From: Microtetraspora malaysiensis
GTDB lineage: Bacteria; Actinomycetota; Actinomycetes; Streptosporangiales; Streptosporangiaceae
Direction: 5' to 3'
DNA: 64,000 nt
NCBI RefSeq assembly: GCF_001528665.1
Contig: NZ_BBYJ01000004.1
Location: forward strand, 246,472-310,471
The position numbers and the translations under genes were made by a program. The notes under the pieces are model-generated. The model made no database searches and was not told where the DNA came from. It saw nothing but the letters and a program-made list of their open reading frames with translations. Positions within the stretch are counted from its first letter, which is position 1; every line of letters starts with the position of its first letter. This document shows positions 42,975 to 48,125 of the stretch, piece after piece.

Positions 42975-43850
42975 TCAGGCGGCGAGTAAGCCGGGAGTGC
43001 GGCAGAGCCAGTCGTTGAGCGTTCCGGCGAAGCCGGACGGCGGGCCGATGCTGAGGCACGAGCCGTCGGCGCGACTGCCGAGCCGTACCCGGAACGGTCG
43101 CCGGCCGAGATCGGGGGCGCCGGAGACGCGCGCGGACTCGGCGCCGCCTATCCACAGGTGCTCGCCGATCGAGCGGCACCTCGCCTTGGGGCTCGCGGCG
43201 CTCCACGCGAGATGCCCGGGGAGCAGACACCGCGCCACACTGCGGAGCACGGAGACGGTGCAGAGACCGTGCACGCAGGCGGCCCCCTCCAGCATGATCT
43301 CGGGCAGGCCGAACCTCCGGAGCCCGCGTGTCGCGACGGTGAGGCAGGTGCAGGCGCCGCTGCCCGCCGGATCGCAGGGCGGGCAGGAGCCGCCGGAGCC
43401 GACGTCCGTGCTCCAGCCGAGCCAGTCGTCCTCAAGGTGGAACTCGCCCGGCTCCGCCTGGCATCCCGTGTGCGGCACGACGCCACCGGTGCGGACGTCG
43501 ACGATCACGCCGCGACAGGTGTCGGCGACACCGCGGGCCACCGCCCTGGCGACCTGCGCCGCCTCGGGCTGCCCGGCGACGGGCGCGGTGGCGGTGACCA
43601 CGATGTGATGACGGGCCGCGTGGAGCGCGGCACGCCCCTCGTCACCAAGACTCGTGCGCCGCCACGGTGACTGCGCGGCGGGGAACACCCGCAGGTCCAG
43701 CCGGGGCGTGCCGATCGCCCGGGCGGCCGCCTTCCGATGCGGCCCGCCCGTCCGCCATGGGACGGCCGCGCCAAGATCGGCCGACCGCCGATCGGCGGCG
43801 ACGACGAACACCGAGGTGGTCTCGGCCGGGACGGGATAGGTGATCTTCAT
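42975..43850 (-). CDS. Unrecognised Cys-rich protein at the end of the peptide cassette
   Basis: The protein has 291 residues. ATG at 43850 has GGAGG five bases before it. The middle part carries a cysteine cluster (GSCPPCDPAGSGACTC at about 160-175) and further cysteines around ACVHGLC and RCLL. The first 120 residues include a VVTATAPVAGQPEAAQVARAV segment that looks like a compact alpha/beta domain. It begins 38 bases after the M50 peptidase gene on the same strand, so it is likely the last gene of that operon. Immunity, tailoring of the peptide, or metal binding are all possible; none can be shown from sequence. Confidence 0.65.
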   Translation of the reverse strand: MKITYPVPAETTSVFVVAADRRSADLGAAVPWRTGGPHRKAAARAIGTPRLDLRVFPAAQSPWRRTSLGDEGRAALHAARHHIVVTATAPVAGQPEAAQVARAVARGVADTCRGVIVDVRTGGVVPHTGCQAEPGEFHLEDDWLGWSTDVGSGGSCPPCDPAGSGACTCLTVATRGLRRFGLPEIMLEGAACVHGLCTVSVLRSVARCLLPGHLAWSAASPKARCRSIGEHLWIGGAESARVSGAPDLGRRPFRVRLGSRADGSCLSIGPPSGFAGTLNDWLCRTPGLLAA

Positions 43851-43888
43851 GAGGTCCTCCTGTCGTTCCTGGAGACCCCAGCCTGCGG

Positions 43889-45199
43889 TCACGCGCGGCG
43901 GCCCGGCTCAACCGAACGCCGCTCTGTGGAAAACTCCGGCTCATCCACAGCCGGGCGGGCGCCGCCGGCCCGGATGGGAGCCGCCAGGACCGCGACGACC
44001 GACGCGAACCATCGCCTGATCCTGGACCCGTGCCTGCGCCACCACGTGCGCACCCAGAGCCCCTGGACCCCGGCCAGGACCGCGACCACGATCACGGCGT
44101 CGGCGACCGCCGCCCCCTCGCCGCCGTTCAGCAGGGTGCCGATCGCGGGCATCGCGATGGCTGAGAGGGCCGGCACCACGATCGTCGTCGCGACCGCCAG
44201 GCACACCACCGTGCCCAGCACGAGAAGCATCGTGTAGAGGCGCACCGCGGAGCGCTCCCGCCGGGAGAAGCGCGCCAGCGGGTTCGCGCCGCCCCGGCCC
44301 AGCAGGCGGGCGATCAGGTGCCGCCCGTACGCCACGCCGTCGCCGTACAGGTTCCGGCACCCGGCGAGGTCCTGGGCCACGAAGTAGAGGTCCGTACGCA
44401 TGAAGATGAGGAGTTGGAAGCTCATCGCGTCGATCTGCGTCAGCACGACGATGGAGAGGCCGGTGTGGGCGCCCTCCTCCGACGGTACAACGCACAACAG
44501 GACAAATCCGGCGGCGGCGATGGCGGCGTCCAGGGCCATTCCGGCGAGGTAGACGGTCATCCGGACCCGCTTCTCCTCGCCCCAGACGCCGGAGACGTCC
44601 GTCTGCGCCACGAGGAACTGCAGGCGCGAGCCGAGGGTGATCCGTCCGGGCACCCCGGCGGCCCGCGCCGTGCACAGGTGGGCGAGCTCGTGCAGCATCA
44701 CCAGGGACCAGGCGATGGCGATCTGGGAGACCAGCGAGATGGTGCCGAACTCGCTCCAGGCCATGATGCTCGGGCTCGGCATGATCTCCGGCCGTACGGC
44801 GAGCGCGGCCAGCCCGCAGAGGATGAGCCCCACCAGCCCGGCGTGCACCCCCGACCTCAGCGTCCACCGGACATGGCGCGGCTTCAGCCAGGGCAGCGAG
44901 GGGCTCTCCCGGTCGGTTTCGCCGGTGGGCCGTCCGTCGATCTCGGCGACGAAGCCGACGTCGATCAGAGCCGCGACGAAGTCGGCCACGTCGACGGTGG
45001 TCCCGGTCTCGGCCGCGACGCGTGCGGCCACGGCGTCGATGGGCCCGCCCTCGGCCAGCAACTCGATGACCCGTTGCCCGATGTCCGGAAAGGACACGAA
45101 ATCCCCGGTCTCGACCCGTCCGACGATCCAGTCGTCGCCGTCGCGGCGCGTTCGGAGCGGGTGCAGCCGCACGCGGGACGCTCCGGTCACCGCGCGCAT
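43889..45199 (-). CDS. Membrane M50-type zinc peptidase with N-terminal PqqD-like domain
   Basis: The protein has 436 residues. ATG at 45199 lies inside the end of the ThiF gene, so the two overlap by 13 bases and are coupled. Residues about 8-90 look like a PqqD-like winged helix (DDWIVGRVETGDFVSFPDIGQ, then two helices), the fold used to hold leader peptides. After a helix at about 118-137, the zinc motif HELAH is at 170-174 within a membrane segment, and a second family motif RTDLYFVAQDL supplies the third ligand Asp. Four or five more helices follow. The architecture recalls YydH, the membrane peptidase of the Bacillus epipeptide system. It probably cuts the leader from the peptide encoded at 46565 during or before export. 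Confidence 0.82.
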   Translation of the reverse strand: MRAVTGASRVRLHPLRTRRDGDDWIVGRVETGDFVSFPDIGQRVIELLAEGGPIDAVAARVAAETGTTVDVADFVAALIDVGFVAEIDGRPTGETDRESPSLPWLKPRHVRWTLRSGVHAGLVGLILCGLAALAVRPEIMPSPSIMAWSEFGTISLVSQIAIAWSLVMLHELAHLCTARAAGVPGRITLGSRLQFLVAQTDVSGVWGEEKRVRMTVYLAGMALDAAIAAAGFVLLCVVPSEEGAHTGLSIVVLTQIDAMSFQLLIFMRTDLYFVAQDLAGCRNLYGDGVAYGRHLIARLLGRGGANPLARFSRRERSAVRLYTMLLVLGTVVCLAVATTIVVPALSAIAMPAIGTLLNGGEGAAVADAVIVVAVLAGVQGLWVRTWWRRHGSRIRRWFASVVAVLAAPIRAGGARPAVDEPEFSTERRSVEPGRRA

Positions 45200-46332
45200 A
45201 CGGAGCACCCCGCTTCACCGCGCGGGAACTCGGCGTAGATCGGCTGCTGCGGGGCGATGAGGTTGGTTCCCTGGATGAAACCGGCGGTGATCGGGGGCAC
45301 GCCGGTGATGACGCGGAGGACGCTTTGGGCGACGAGGTTGCCGCACAACCCCGCCGATGTGGCGATGGCGCCCGGTCCCCCGAGATCGACAGGACGGTAC
45401 GCGGCGTCCGTCCGCTTCCGGTCCTCGATCCGCTGCATGCACTCATAGCAGGCCCCTCGCCCCGGCACGAAGACGCCCGTGGTGACGAGAGGGCCGCTGT
45501 AGCCGCCGCCCACCCACGGGACCCCCGCCGCGAAGCAGGCCCGGCTGGCCCAGACGCGGATGCCGTCCTCGCCTCTGGGCTCGTCGGCGCACAGCGCCAG
45601 CACGTCGAACCCCGGCAGCAGGTCGGCCAGGTCTTGCTCGCCCCGGACACGCGCCGGCACGCCGGACACCTCGATGTCGGAGTTCAGCGTCGTCAGCCTC
45701 TCGACGGCGACCTCCACCTTGGGGCGGCCGATGTCGTCCTCGGCGAAGATGAGCTGCCGGTTGAGGTTGGACAGCTCGACCCGGTCGTCGTCGATCAGAT
45801 GCAGGGCTCCCACTCCGGAGGCGGCCAGGGCCAGCGCCACCGACGCCCCCGCGCCGCCAACGCCGACCAGCAGCACCCGCGACCGGCGCAACCTGAGCTG
45901 GGCGTCCCAGCCGCGCTCGCGCGGGGTGAGGTCGGCCCACCGGAAGAACGCGTGGCCCCGGCTGTAACGTTCGCGCTCCCGGCGGCTCAGCTCGGGGGCC
46001 TCCGTCGCCCCCGCGTCCTCGATGTGGCCGGTGCCGACGAGCTGCGCGACGATCGCCACCGCGTCGTGCCGGGTCAGTTCCGGGAAGCCCGCACGCACCA
46101 CCTCGGCGACGTCCGCGCAGGTGCGCGTGCCGTTCATCGCCTCGATGGCCGTCCACACCCAGCCGTGGGGGTCGTTGATTTCATGGGCCAGCCCGTAGAT
46201 GTCGCCTCCGATGCGTATCCGGCCGTCGTCAAGGCGATAGGCCGCATGCTCGGGCTTTATTCTCGGCAACCGCAATCGGGCCTCCCGTAAAGATGTGAAA
46301 CCGCTCTCATGCCACCCGGACACCGTCTCCAT
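45187..46332 (-). CDS. E1/ThiF-family adenylyltransferase with recognition domain (MccB-like)
   Basis: The protein has 381 residues. The ATG at 46332 has only a weak GGAAAG ahead; GTG 46323 is possible. Residues about 20-105 form a winged-helix region (AYRLDDGRIRIGGDIYGLAHE, then helices) of the kind that binds precursor peptides. The E1 domain starts near 150: LLVGVGGAGASVA (ATP loop), LIDDDRVELSNLNRQ and IGRPKVEVA are canonical. Four cysteines, 295/298 (CYEC) and 376/379 (CSVC), bind structural zinc. MccB of microcin C has this same order and adenylates a C-terminal Asn. ThiF relatives in thiamine, molybdopterin or TOMM pathways are alternatives, but no ThiS/MoaD-type protein with a GG end is nearby. 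Confidence 0.85.
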   Translation of the reverse strand: METVSGWHESGFTSLREARLRLPRIKPEHAAYRLDDGRIRIGGDIYGLAHEINDPHGWVWTAIEAMNGTRTCADVAEVVRAGFPELTRHDAVAIVAQLVGTGHIEDAGATEAPELSRRERERYSRGHAFFRWADLTPRERGWDAQLRLRRSRVLLVGVGGAGASVALALAASGVGALHLIDDDRVELSNLNRQLIFAEDDIGRPKVEVAVERLTTLNSDIEVSGVPARVRGEQDLADLLPGFDVLALCADEPRGEDGIRVWASRACFAAGVPWVGGGYSGPLVTTGVFVPGRGACYECMQRIEDRKRTDAAYRPVDLGGPGAIATSAGLCGNLVAQSVLRVITGVPPITAGFIQGTNLIAPQQPIYAEFPRGEAGCSVCAR

Positions 46333-46402
46333 GCGCTTTCCACGGCGCGGCCCGCGCGCTTTCCCCTTTCCCCGCCCGTGCGTCCGCCGGAGGACGCCGA
46401 CG

Positions 46403-46480
46403 ATGAAGCCCGGAAAAAGACACGAGCACCCCAAGAAAGGGTCGGATAAGAAAGGAAAAGGCGCGCCGAAAGTCAGATAA
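46403..46480 (+). CDS. Possible 25-residue Lys-rich ORF, antisense to the cassette
   Basis: GGAGGAC lies eight bases before an ATG, and the frame encodes a very basic 25-residue peptide (starts MKPGKRHEHPKK, ends APKVR). The strand is opposite to the surrounding operon and lysine is rare in this genome. It could be a real small protein or a chance frame with a good ribosome binding site. It overlaps no other gene and sits between the peptide gene and thiF. Confidence 0.3.
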   Translation: MKPGKRHEHPKKGSDKKGKGAPKVR

Positions 46481-46501
46481 AGGCGTACGGGATCCAGGAA
46501 A

Positions 46502-46515
46502 CGCGGAGAGCCGCG
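46502..46515 (-). terminator. Short hairpin between peptide and ThiF genes
   Basis: CGCGG and CCGCG flank a four-base loop AGAG. In microcin C operons a hairpin after the peptide gene reduces read-through so that more peptide than enzyme is made; this one lies in the right place but is short, so the call is weak. Confidence 0.3.
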
Positions 46516-46564
46516 ATCGGGCGCCGGAAAGGCCTCCTCTCGTGGCTCCGCCTGCGATACGGGA

Positions 46565-46699
46565 TCAGTTTCCCGTGGAGTTGCTCATCCGTACGGTGGT
46601 TTCGAGCCGGTCGAGCCGGCGGATCTCGATCTTGACCGCTTCCTCGACTGAGGTGTTTTCCGCGGGCTTGTTCTCGTCGAGGTCCCTGAGTTCGCTCAC
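46565..46699 (-). CDS. Candidate precursor peptide (MccA-like), 44 residues ending in Asn
   Basis: A GTG start at 46699 has a good ribosome binding site (AGAGGAAG, six bases away). The frame continues upstream to a second GTG at 46720. The peptide begins MSELRDLDENKPAE, is acidic and helix-prone in the middle (EEAVKIEIRRLDRLE), and ends RMSNSTGN. The final seven residues, MSNSTGN, start with Met and end in Gly-Asn, and a C-terminal Asn is the residue modified in microcin C (MRTGNAN). An ATG at 46588 could even encode this heptapeptide directly, though without a ribosome binding site. The gene lies between the exporter and the ThiF enzyme on the same strand. No cysteines are present, so thiazole chemistry is not expected. 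Confidence 0.65.
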   Translation of the reverse strand: MSELRDLDENKPAENTSVEEAVKIEIRRLDRLETTVRMSNSTGN

Positions 46700-46762
46700 G
46701 AGCTTCCTCTTTTCGCACACCTGATTGACGTTGCCGACCAATTAGCGGCCGGCGCGGATGTC

Positions 46763-46791
46763 AGAGTAGATCACCGGCCACGTAAGGGAAA
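46763..46791 (-). promoter_or_regulatory. Possible promoter for the peptide gene
   Basis: On the minus strand TTTCCC and TACTCT are 17 bases apart, about 65 bases before the peptide start, in an AT-richer pocket after the exporter stop. The -10 fits the TAnnnT pattern; the -35 is poor. Its presence would let the peptide be made separately from the exporter. Confidence 0.3.
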
Positions 46792-46823
46792 GATCTGATT
46801 TACCGCCGATTTCGAACTCTTCG

Positions 46824-48125
46824 TCAGGGCGCTTTGAGCGATGTCGGCGTCGCCTCCGCCGCCCCGTCCGGGGCGGCCGGAGCGACGTCGCTGTGGAAAC
46901 GCGTCATTCCACGGAAAAAGAGAGCGGCGAGTGGCACGGCGAATCCGCCGACCGTGCCGATCACCAGCAGTGCCGACCGGCCGATCGCCGCGCTGACCGG
47001 ACCGGTCAGCGCCAGCCCGAGGGGCATCATGACGGAGGAGGCCAGCCAGTCCACCGACGTGACCCGGGCGAGCCGCTCCGGAGGGATCTCGCGCTGCAGG
47101 TTCATGACCCACTGCACGGCGAAGATCTCCAGCCCCAGCCCGGCGACGATGTAGCAGCCGTACAGGAACTCCGGCGTCACCGGCCAGATGAGGGCGAGCG
47201 GCACGGCTCCGTACAGCGCGAGCCCGATGACGCCGGTCAGCCCGGCCCGGCCGGGTTTCCATTTCATGCTGACGACCCCGCCCGCCAGGCCGCCGACCGA
47301 GAGCAGGGCGAGGGCGGTGCCGTACACGGCGTCGCCACCGAATGTGTCGCGGGAGACCAGGGGCAGCAGGACCTGCGTGGGCGCGACCGTGAGCATGAGC
47401 TGGAGCGCGACGGCGATGATGACGCCGGTCACCCAGGGCCGCCGCAGCACCTCGGAGAGGCCGTCCGCGATCTCCCGTACGGCCGAGGAACGCGGGGCGG
47501 CGGCGACCGGGGGTTCCCGCAGCGGCAGCAGCAGGAGGAGTCCGAGCACGTAGGCCGCCAGCACGGCGAGGAACCCGACCCGGGGAGACCAGACGGTCAC
47601 CACGTACGCGCCGAGCCCCGGCCCGACGATGGCGCCGATCCGCCAGGAGACCGCGCCCATCGCGACGCCCGTCGGGCGCTGCTCGGGGGTGAGGACGGAC
47701 GACAGGCACGCCTGGTAGGCGGGCCGGTGGAACGCCTCCGCGGCCCCGACGAGGAAGACCAGGACGGCGAGGAGCGACGCGGGAGCGTCGCCGCGCAGCC
47801 CGACGGCGACCGCGCAGCACTGGAAGCCGAGAGAGACGATCATGACCGTCCGGCGGGGCAGCCGGTCCGCCCACAACCCGCCGAGCAACGCGAAAAGGAT
47901 CAGCGCGATCCACCGGCCGGTGAATATCGCGCCCACGGTCGAGGCGGTCCCACCCGAGTTCAGGGCCGCGATGGTCACCGTGACCGGGAAGATCTGATCG
48001 GCCGCCACCGACATCGTGAAGCTGAGCCACAGCAGTCGAAACTCACGGTTTCGCACCAGGGAGCCATCGGCGGGTCGGCGCGGACGAATGAGCCTTCGCA
48101 TACGAGCGCGCATGCACGAAATCAT
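46824..48125 (-). CDS. MFS transporter, putative peptide-nucleotide exporter
   Basis: The protein has 433 residues with 12 predicted helices and an internal repeat. A basic N-terminus (RMRRLIRPRRPADGS) precedes helix 1; the MFS loop 2-3 motif appears as GGLWADRLPRRTV. The similarity is to the DHA3/Enterobactin-exporter (MFS_3) type that moves small peptides, siderophores and drugs. It is the first gene of the minus-strand cassette and stands 125 bases before the peptide gene. In microcin C operons an MFS exporter (MccC) removes the finished compound and gives self-protection. The long AT-rich leader at 48126-48190 may hold its promoter. Confidence 0.85.
   Translation of the reverse strand: MISCMRARMRRLIRPRRPADGSLVRNREFRLLWLSFTMSVAADQIFPVTVTIAALNSGGTASTVGAIFTGRWIALILFALLGGLWADRLPRRTVMIVSLGFQCCAVAVGLRGDAPASLLAVLVFLVGAAEAFHRPAYQACLSSVLTPEQRPTGVAMGAVSWRIGAIVGPGLGAYVVTVWSPRVGFLAVLAAYVLGLLLLLPLREPPVAAAPRSSAVREIADGLSEVLRRPWVTGVIIAVALQLMLTVAPTQVLLPLVSRDTFGGDAVYGTALALLSVGGLAGGVVSMKWKPGRAGLTGVIGLALYGAVPLALIWPVTPEFLYGCYIVAGLGLEIFAVQWVMNLQREIPPERLARVTSVDWLASSVMMPLGLALTGPVSAAIGRSALLVIGTVGGFAVPLAALFFRGMTRFHSDVAPAAPDGAAEATPTSLKAP

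Follow-up and report, generated by a model that had tools for sequence, protein, structure and literature searches.

What becomes of a 44-residue peptide that is encoded between a transporter gene and a gene for an E1/ThiF-type adenylating enzyme? This question is raised by a locus on the minus strand (43889–48125) of a 64-kb stretch of the 8.8-Mb genome of Microtetraspora malaysiensis. The whole stretch is referred to as the window. From 48125 to 43889 the locus carries, in this order, a major facilitator superfamily (MFS) transporter, a 44-codon open reading frame (ORF), the E1/ThiF protein and an M50 protein. The original prediction had combined these with an adjoining Cys-rich ORF into a microcin C-like peptide–nucleotide system. 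All five ORFs are real. The best reading is that the locus belongs to a so far uncharacterised family of actinomycete peptides that are made by E1 enzymes, with a macrolactone as the likely product at the window locus.

The peptide is a genuine precursor. It is encoded at 46565–46699 (minus strand), starts with GTG and ends IRRLDRLETTVRMSNSTGN; beside the translation itself, homologues are found in the same place. With the initiator Met included, its mass is calculated as 5045.515. In the window and in five of its closest relatives (L031–L035) the start is preceded by AAGAGGAARCTC and the ORF lies between the MFS and E1 genes. Seven public entries were found for the precursor, and the named ones are all called "hypothetical protein". 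The gap between precursor and E1 (46276–46564) comprises 289 bases, with 247 of 277 aligned bases identical in Microtetraspora fusca, and its length is 125–359 in the remaining relatives compared.

The homologues share the motif I-x-I-R-x-L-D-K-x-E-T-T followed by a variable core. In the window this leader recognition motif is VKIEIRRLDRLETT (precursor residues 22–35, 46595–46636). A motif model was built on 35 motifs taken at the loci read first. Among 131 distinct E1 loci, it detected at least one precursor at 99. At these loci the peptide is conserved beside the E1, a point on which the original prediction had made itself dependent. The family-genome search supplied 60 loci (out of its 61 places outside the window), and the top 80 of the 515 or more that were confirmed, four others and the window were added (145 altogether); duplicates were dropped. 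Outside the seed set, 49 of 66 distinct loci were matched. As a control, 33,129 small ORFs were each shuffled once and gave a single match at the same score. In the 102 unique precursors the motif Leu is present in 101, the Glu in 99, the first Thr in 98 and the Arg in 95. The motif is followed by 6–13 variable residues that are rich in Gly, Ser and Asn. A short precursor, a conserved leader and a variable core, next to a modifying enzyme that bears a RiPP recognition element (RRE), are the features of a ribosomally synthesized and post-translationally modified peptide (RiPP).

Reading by hand revealed further precursors that the filter had missed (L045, L046, L118 and L131). At eight Pseudonocardiaceae-type loci (L159, L165, L167, L169, L170, L171, L174 and L186) diverged precursors of 19–24 residues, of the MIEFIEVHRETTFSSPTQQS type, were found by hand immediately upstream of related E1s. 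The same method finds MccA (MRTGNAN) next to Escherichia coli MccB, which served as positive control. In many loci of Streptomyces and Actinacidiphila the precursor lies upstream of the E1 on the opposite strand. At L041, L067, L070, L091, L143, L158, L183 and L185 a single E1 is accompanied by two or three precursors that differ in their cores; multiple cores per E1 would fit a tolerant enzyme.

The E1 enzyme (45187–46275, minus strand; ThiF, PF00899) probably starts with TTG at 46275 (MRLPRIKPEH...) and then has 362 residues. This start is preceded by GGGAGG and agrees with most relatives. A profile of the E1, set against MccB and other ThiF subfamilies as had been suggested earlier, scores highest with MccB (173 bits), followed by PaaA (168), MoeB (162) and ThiF (145). 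The predicted model (pLDDT 89.6) has MccB as its best fold (E 1.9e-26, TM 0.70 by query) and PaaA as the second (E 2.5e-23). The N-terminal winged-helix RRE (45991–46275) matches PaaA residues 8–86 when searched alone (E 4.6e-8), and MccB is absent from these RRE-only profile matches up to E 10. The family PF21475 (PaaA-like_N) hits the window E1 with E 0.0018, a match that falls short of the family cut-off, and reaches E≤0.01 in 7 of 19 aligned E1s. Judged by sequence, RRE and predicted fold, MccB and PaaA are the closest solved relatives. The ATP-site residues are invariant in the 19 aligned E1s. These sequences have no conserved Cys besides the two CxxC pairs, and no conserved catalytic or thioester Cys. 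In a tree of 44 rows the E1 family is a clade of its own (starred; 28 rows, support 100/98). The references E. coli MccB, PaaA-like and GrcB-like fall outside it, all on long branches.

What happens to the peptide is best approached from its C-terminus. The core hexapeptide SNSTGN (Ser39–Asn44) is encoded at 46568–46585. Asn, Gly, Ser, Ala or Thr is the last residue in 73 of 77 distinct cores, where permutation predicts 48.9 and none of 10,000 permutations was as high. To control for kinship, the E1s were grouped at 70, 60 and 55% identity and each group was represented by a single precursor, with 5,000 permutations each. The small last residue persists (40/44, 18/22 and 13/15; as high in 0, 151 and 52 permutations, respectively). 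This suggests that the precursor C-terminus sits in a tight pocket, which would fit adenylation of its carboxylate. A second limit concerns position -6. Among the 66 distinct tails outside a Gly-ending clade, the four hand-read precursors included, 45 have Ser, Cys or Lys there; permutation predicts 17.1, and none of 10,000 permutations was as high. With 70% groups the count is 25 of 44 (0 of 5,000). L059 ends SGNSNS and both L063 and L051 end CGNSNS, so that over these six residues the sole difference is Ser or Cys at -6. All eight of the diverged precursors, which were picked by eye, have a small last residue, with position -7 or -8 taken by Ser or Cys.

The pattern SN[SPA]xGx ends 23 of the 66 distinct tails. 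Asn, Ser, Ala, Thr and Glu interchange at its final position (15, 3, 2, 2 and 1, respectively). Tails resembling the window core, SNSIGN and SNSAGN, were picked by hand at L082 and L087, where the E1s are distant and the leaders unrelated. Since such tails recur behind unrelated leaders, the product may well be the hexapeptide itself. The short peptides of these two loci lie about 100 bases upstream of the E1, in an E1 clade of about 35% identity.

Quite possibly, although we would stop short of calling it probable, the E1 activates the C-terminal carboxylate and closes it onto Ser39. The product would be a six-residue macrolactone, Ser-Asn-Ser-Thr-Gly-Asn, which the M50 protease would cut free and the MFS protein export. 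Closure from the C-terminus to Ser explains both the small last residue and the limit at -6. The winged-helix RRE of the E1 would bind the IxIRxLDKxETT strand, and ATP would adenylate the small C-terminal residue. The proposed ring nucleophile Ser39, or the Cys or Lys of relatives, would then attack from six residues back, and AMP would leave. The M50 protease would bind the same leader via an RRE of its own and cut near ETT; loci without M50 would need another protease. There is precedent for the ring-forming step. In the available text of two reports, three RRE-ThiF enzymes, namely GrcB (which forms a thiolactone), EnfB and IndF, join the C-terminus into a ring in an ATP-driven reaction (PMC12250964, PMC12150305).

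Several observations weigh against the macrolactone. The signal at -6 is weaker with 60% groups (10/22, 99 of 5,000 permutations) and is not significant at 55% (5/15, 1,122 of 5,000). Ser, Cys or Lys is missing from -6 in 21 of the 66 tails; 15 of these have one at -5 or -7 and six at neither position. In the Gly-ending clade (LREGG and WRDGGG are examples of its tails), none of 15 distinct tails has such a residue at -6, so that the Thr of ETT or other chemistry would be needed there. Ring closure explains neither this clade nor the enrichment of Asn, and a plain lactone does not account for the frequent C-terminal Asn in the clade of the window (36 of 48). Furthermore, the carboxylate that is activated might be that of the near-invariant Glu of ETT (99/102), as happens in pantocin.

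C-terminal Asn is central to the microcin C-type route that had originally been predicted. The E1 would turn Asn44 into a succinimide and form an N–P bond to a nucleotide; the MFS protein would export the peptidyl-nucleotide and the M50 protease would trim the leader. MccB is the top match of the E1 by sequence and by fold, the window peptide ends in Asn and the locus includes an MFS exporter. Across the 48 E1 rows of the window's clade, the best-scoring precursor ends in Asn in 36, in Ala, Ser or Thr in 11 and in Gly in one. Asn is last in 24 of the 77 distinct cores, with 10.6 expected (2 of 10,000 permutations). As far as the available text of a microcin C survey goes, precursors as long as 17–56 residues are known, and every predicted and validated precursor ends in Asn and needs it (PMC6495379). 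In the present family, however, only 34 of the 102 unique precursors have a C-terminal Asn and 68 end otherwise. The precursor of L035, the E1 of which is 76% identical to that of the window, ends SNSTGA; SNPSGS is the end at L037 (E1 73% identical) and in the Sphaerisporangium entry P0209. Once each E1 group is represented by a single precursor, the enrichment fades to 11/44, 5/22 and 3/15 (79, 411 and 1,190 of 5,000 permutations). On the whole 103-row tree the Asn end state changes ten times. The position of MccB outside the E1 clade, though on a long branch, and the match of the RRE to PaaA rather than MccB also argue against this route, and the domain-family scan found no microcin C immunity or tailoring family among the eight window sequences that it covered. 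Since Asn is not conserved and is replaced by Ala or Ser in close relatives, we do not assign the locus to the microcin C systems, and a peptidyl-nucleotide product is considered unlikely. What survives of the original prediction is a leader-dependent E1 system nearest to MccB and PaaA, with a precursor, a protease, an MFS protein and, in the clade of the window, many Asn ends.

The small last residue would also suit an adenylated tail that is handed to a small molecule or a sulfur donor, giving an amide or a thiocarboxylate as in ThiS-type carriers. The Gly-ending tails do resemble ubiquitin-like C-termini. However, such a transfer leaves Ser or Cys at -6 unexplained, the E1 has no conserved catalytic Cys and no sulfur-transfer gene is present among the eight sequences scanned. 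We consider this chemistry quite doubtful. In a pantocin-like reaction, the E1 would instead activate the side chain of Glu33 in ETT, which would react with the adjacent Thr or the backbone. The RRE is nearest to that of PaaA and both the Glu and the first Thr are nearly invariant. On the other hand, Glu-Thr-Thr directly abuts the I-x-I-R-x-L-D-K strand and may be mere recognition sequence, and the size limit at the C-terminus would be left unexplained. The pantocin precursor has a Glu-Glu-Asn core, which the window precursor does not contain. A PaaA-like gene in Pantoea is accompanied by a TauD/TfdA-type dioxygenase, and no dioxygenase of this kind was found among the eight sequences. We regard this route as very unlikely. 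No YcaO family, as would mark a thiazole/oxazole-modified microcin (TOMM) system, was detected among the eight window sequences.

The M50 and MFS proteins are the proposed partners in making the macrolactone. The predicted membrane metalloprotease (43889–45199, minus strand; ATG at 45199) has 436 residues and is fused to an RRE-like domain. The original prediction had noted a PqqD-like domain in the M50 protein; an M50 with an RRE of its own sets the locus apart from microcin C systems. The HELAH zinc motif is encoded at 44678–44692, and the residues H170, E171, H174 and D270 are invariant in 20 of 20 sequences. The predicted exporter (46824–48125, minus strand; 433 residues) matches PF07690 with E 3.6e-35. 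M50 is present at 73 of the 131 E1 loci and an MFS match lies within 5 kb, on either strand, at 18; across the family both are optional partners. Near precursor and E1, DUF6879 (PF21806) occurs at 32 of the 131 loci (L039–L066, L110–L125, L163, L166 and L173), 18 of them without M50. This name was not found in the literature searched.

A single operon of MFS, precursor, E1 and M50 genes would be consistent with their order and common strand. The MFS gene adjoins precursor and E1 in the eight closest relatives (L031–L038). The Cys-rich protein, which has no assigned function (42975–43853, minus strand), was judged by a genome survey and a comparison of the flanks. Its gene is present in 45 of 150 family genomes and adjoins the E1 in only five (the window, G137, G117, G095 and G060), which does not support its proposed role as a fifth member. 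Eight Cys-rich loci without the unit were fetched, and in six of these the genes found on the far flank in the window (UDG, DUF and ABC) are retained. One locus (L197) has these far-flank genes and, in addition, the AAA and VWA genes that make up the near flank; between the flanks no MFS, peptide, E1 or M50 match was found at E≤1e-8. Conversely, L035–L038 have MFS, precursor and E1 in surroundings that differ from those of the window. We therefore infer that MFS-precursor-E1(-M50) is the unit that travels and that the Cys-rich gene is a chromosomal neighbor. The Cys-rich family (window and L197–L204) frequently adjoins uracil-DNA glycosylase and ABC genes; none of the 82 relatives listed has a precomputed Pfam domain.

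In whole-genome searches the E1 was detected in 49 of 150 family genomes (E≤1e-30) and 13 of 394 class genomes (E≤1e-40). A total of 928 of 7,997 scored E1 candidates reach E≤1e-20 (120 listed), and among the matches listed the nearest named relative is from M. fusca (95%). Hosts of the precursor–E1 family include Streptosporangiaceae, Streptomyces, Micromonospora, Nocardia and others; the databases label its E1s as ThiF/HesA/MoeB family and similar. The genome of the window encodes a further ThiF protein (G000:C16:119316-119999, E 6e-51), which is not close to the E1. A Bacillota E1 on the Sporosarcina plasmid pA38H4 (L191) has a similar N-terminus (MKYPKIKEIHG...RIRIG) and lies near an M3 peptidase and an ABC transporter. 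Upstream of more distant E1–M50 pairs (L083, L084, L086, L088 and L090) lie tiny peptides, for example MKIEIKKVEEVETTGNSNSC or MKIEVRKVEAVKATQFMT.

No account of the precursor–E1 family was found in the literature searched. The available text of the 2025 IndF paper mentions further RRE-ThiF clusters without annotation, which may include this family. With its precursor identified and its leader motif and variable core defined across actinomycetes, the family lends itself to direct preparation and mass measurement of the product. An RRE-bearing M50 protease would be an unusual way of directing leader removal. Should rings indeed form, actinomycetes may have in this family a class of small cyclic compounds that serve as signals or antibiotics. 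As a tentative extension, these loci might constitute a new actinomycete RiPP class in which the E1 reads the IxIRxLDKxETT leader and turns tails rich in Ser, Asn and Gly into lactones of six residues (into thiolactones or lactams where Cys or Lys replaces Ser), to be released by the RRE-guided M50: a counterpart of the Gram-positive autoinducing peptides.

Among known systems, microcin C shares with the window locus an RRE-E1 fold without thioester Cys, a precursor, an MFS exporter beside the E1 and the Asn at the end of the peptide. The present family differs in its unconserved Asn, separate E1 clade in this tree, conserved leader motif and RRE-bearing M50, and in the lack of a microcin C tailoring or immunity family among the sequences scanned. 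PaaA of the pantocin A system has the RRE closest to that of the window E1, but the Glu-Glu-Asn core and, among the neighbors scanned, the TauD/TfdA-type dioxygenase are missing here. GrcB, EnfB and IndF of Bacillota likewise employ one RRE-ThiF enzyme, which in the available text closes a C-terminal ring with ATP (PMC12250964, PMC12150305), as proposed here. Their precursors and hosts are different, and a GrcB-like enzyme from Macrococcoides is placed far from the E1 family in the tree, on a long branch. A membrane M50 protease is also part of the peptide operons of pearlins (TglG, TmoG) and epipeptides (EpeP), according to the available text (PMC10885120); the M50 of the window, likened to these, carries a fused RRE-like domain. 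The family thus is of a known kind, the RRE-ThiF ribosomal peptides, and is new in its leader, its core, its host range and its RRE-bearing M50 partner.

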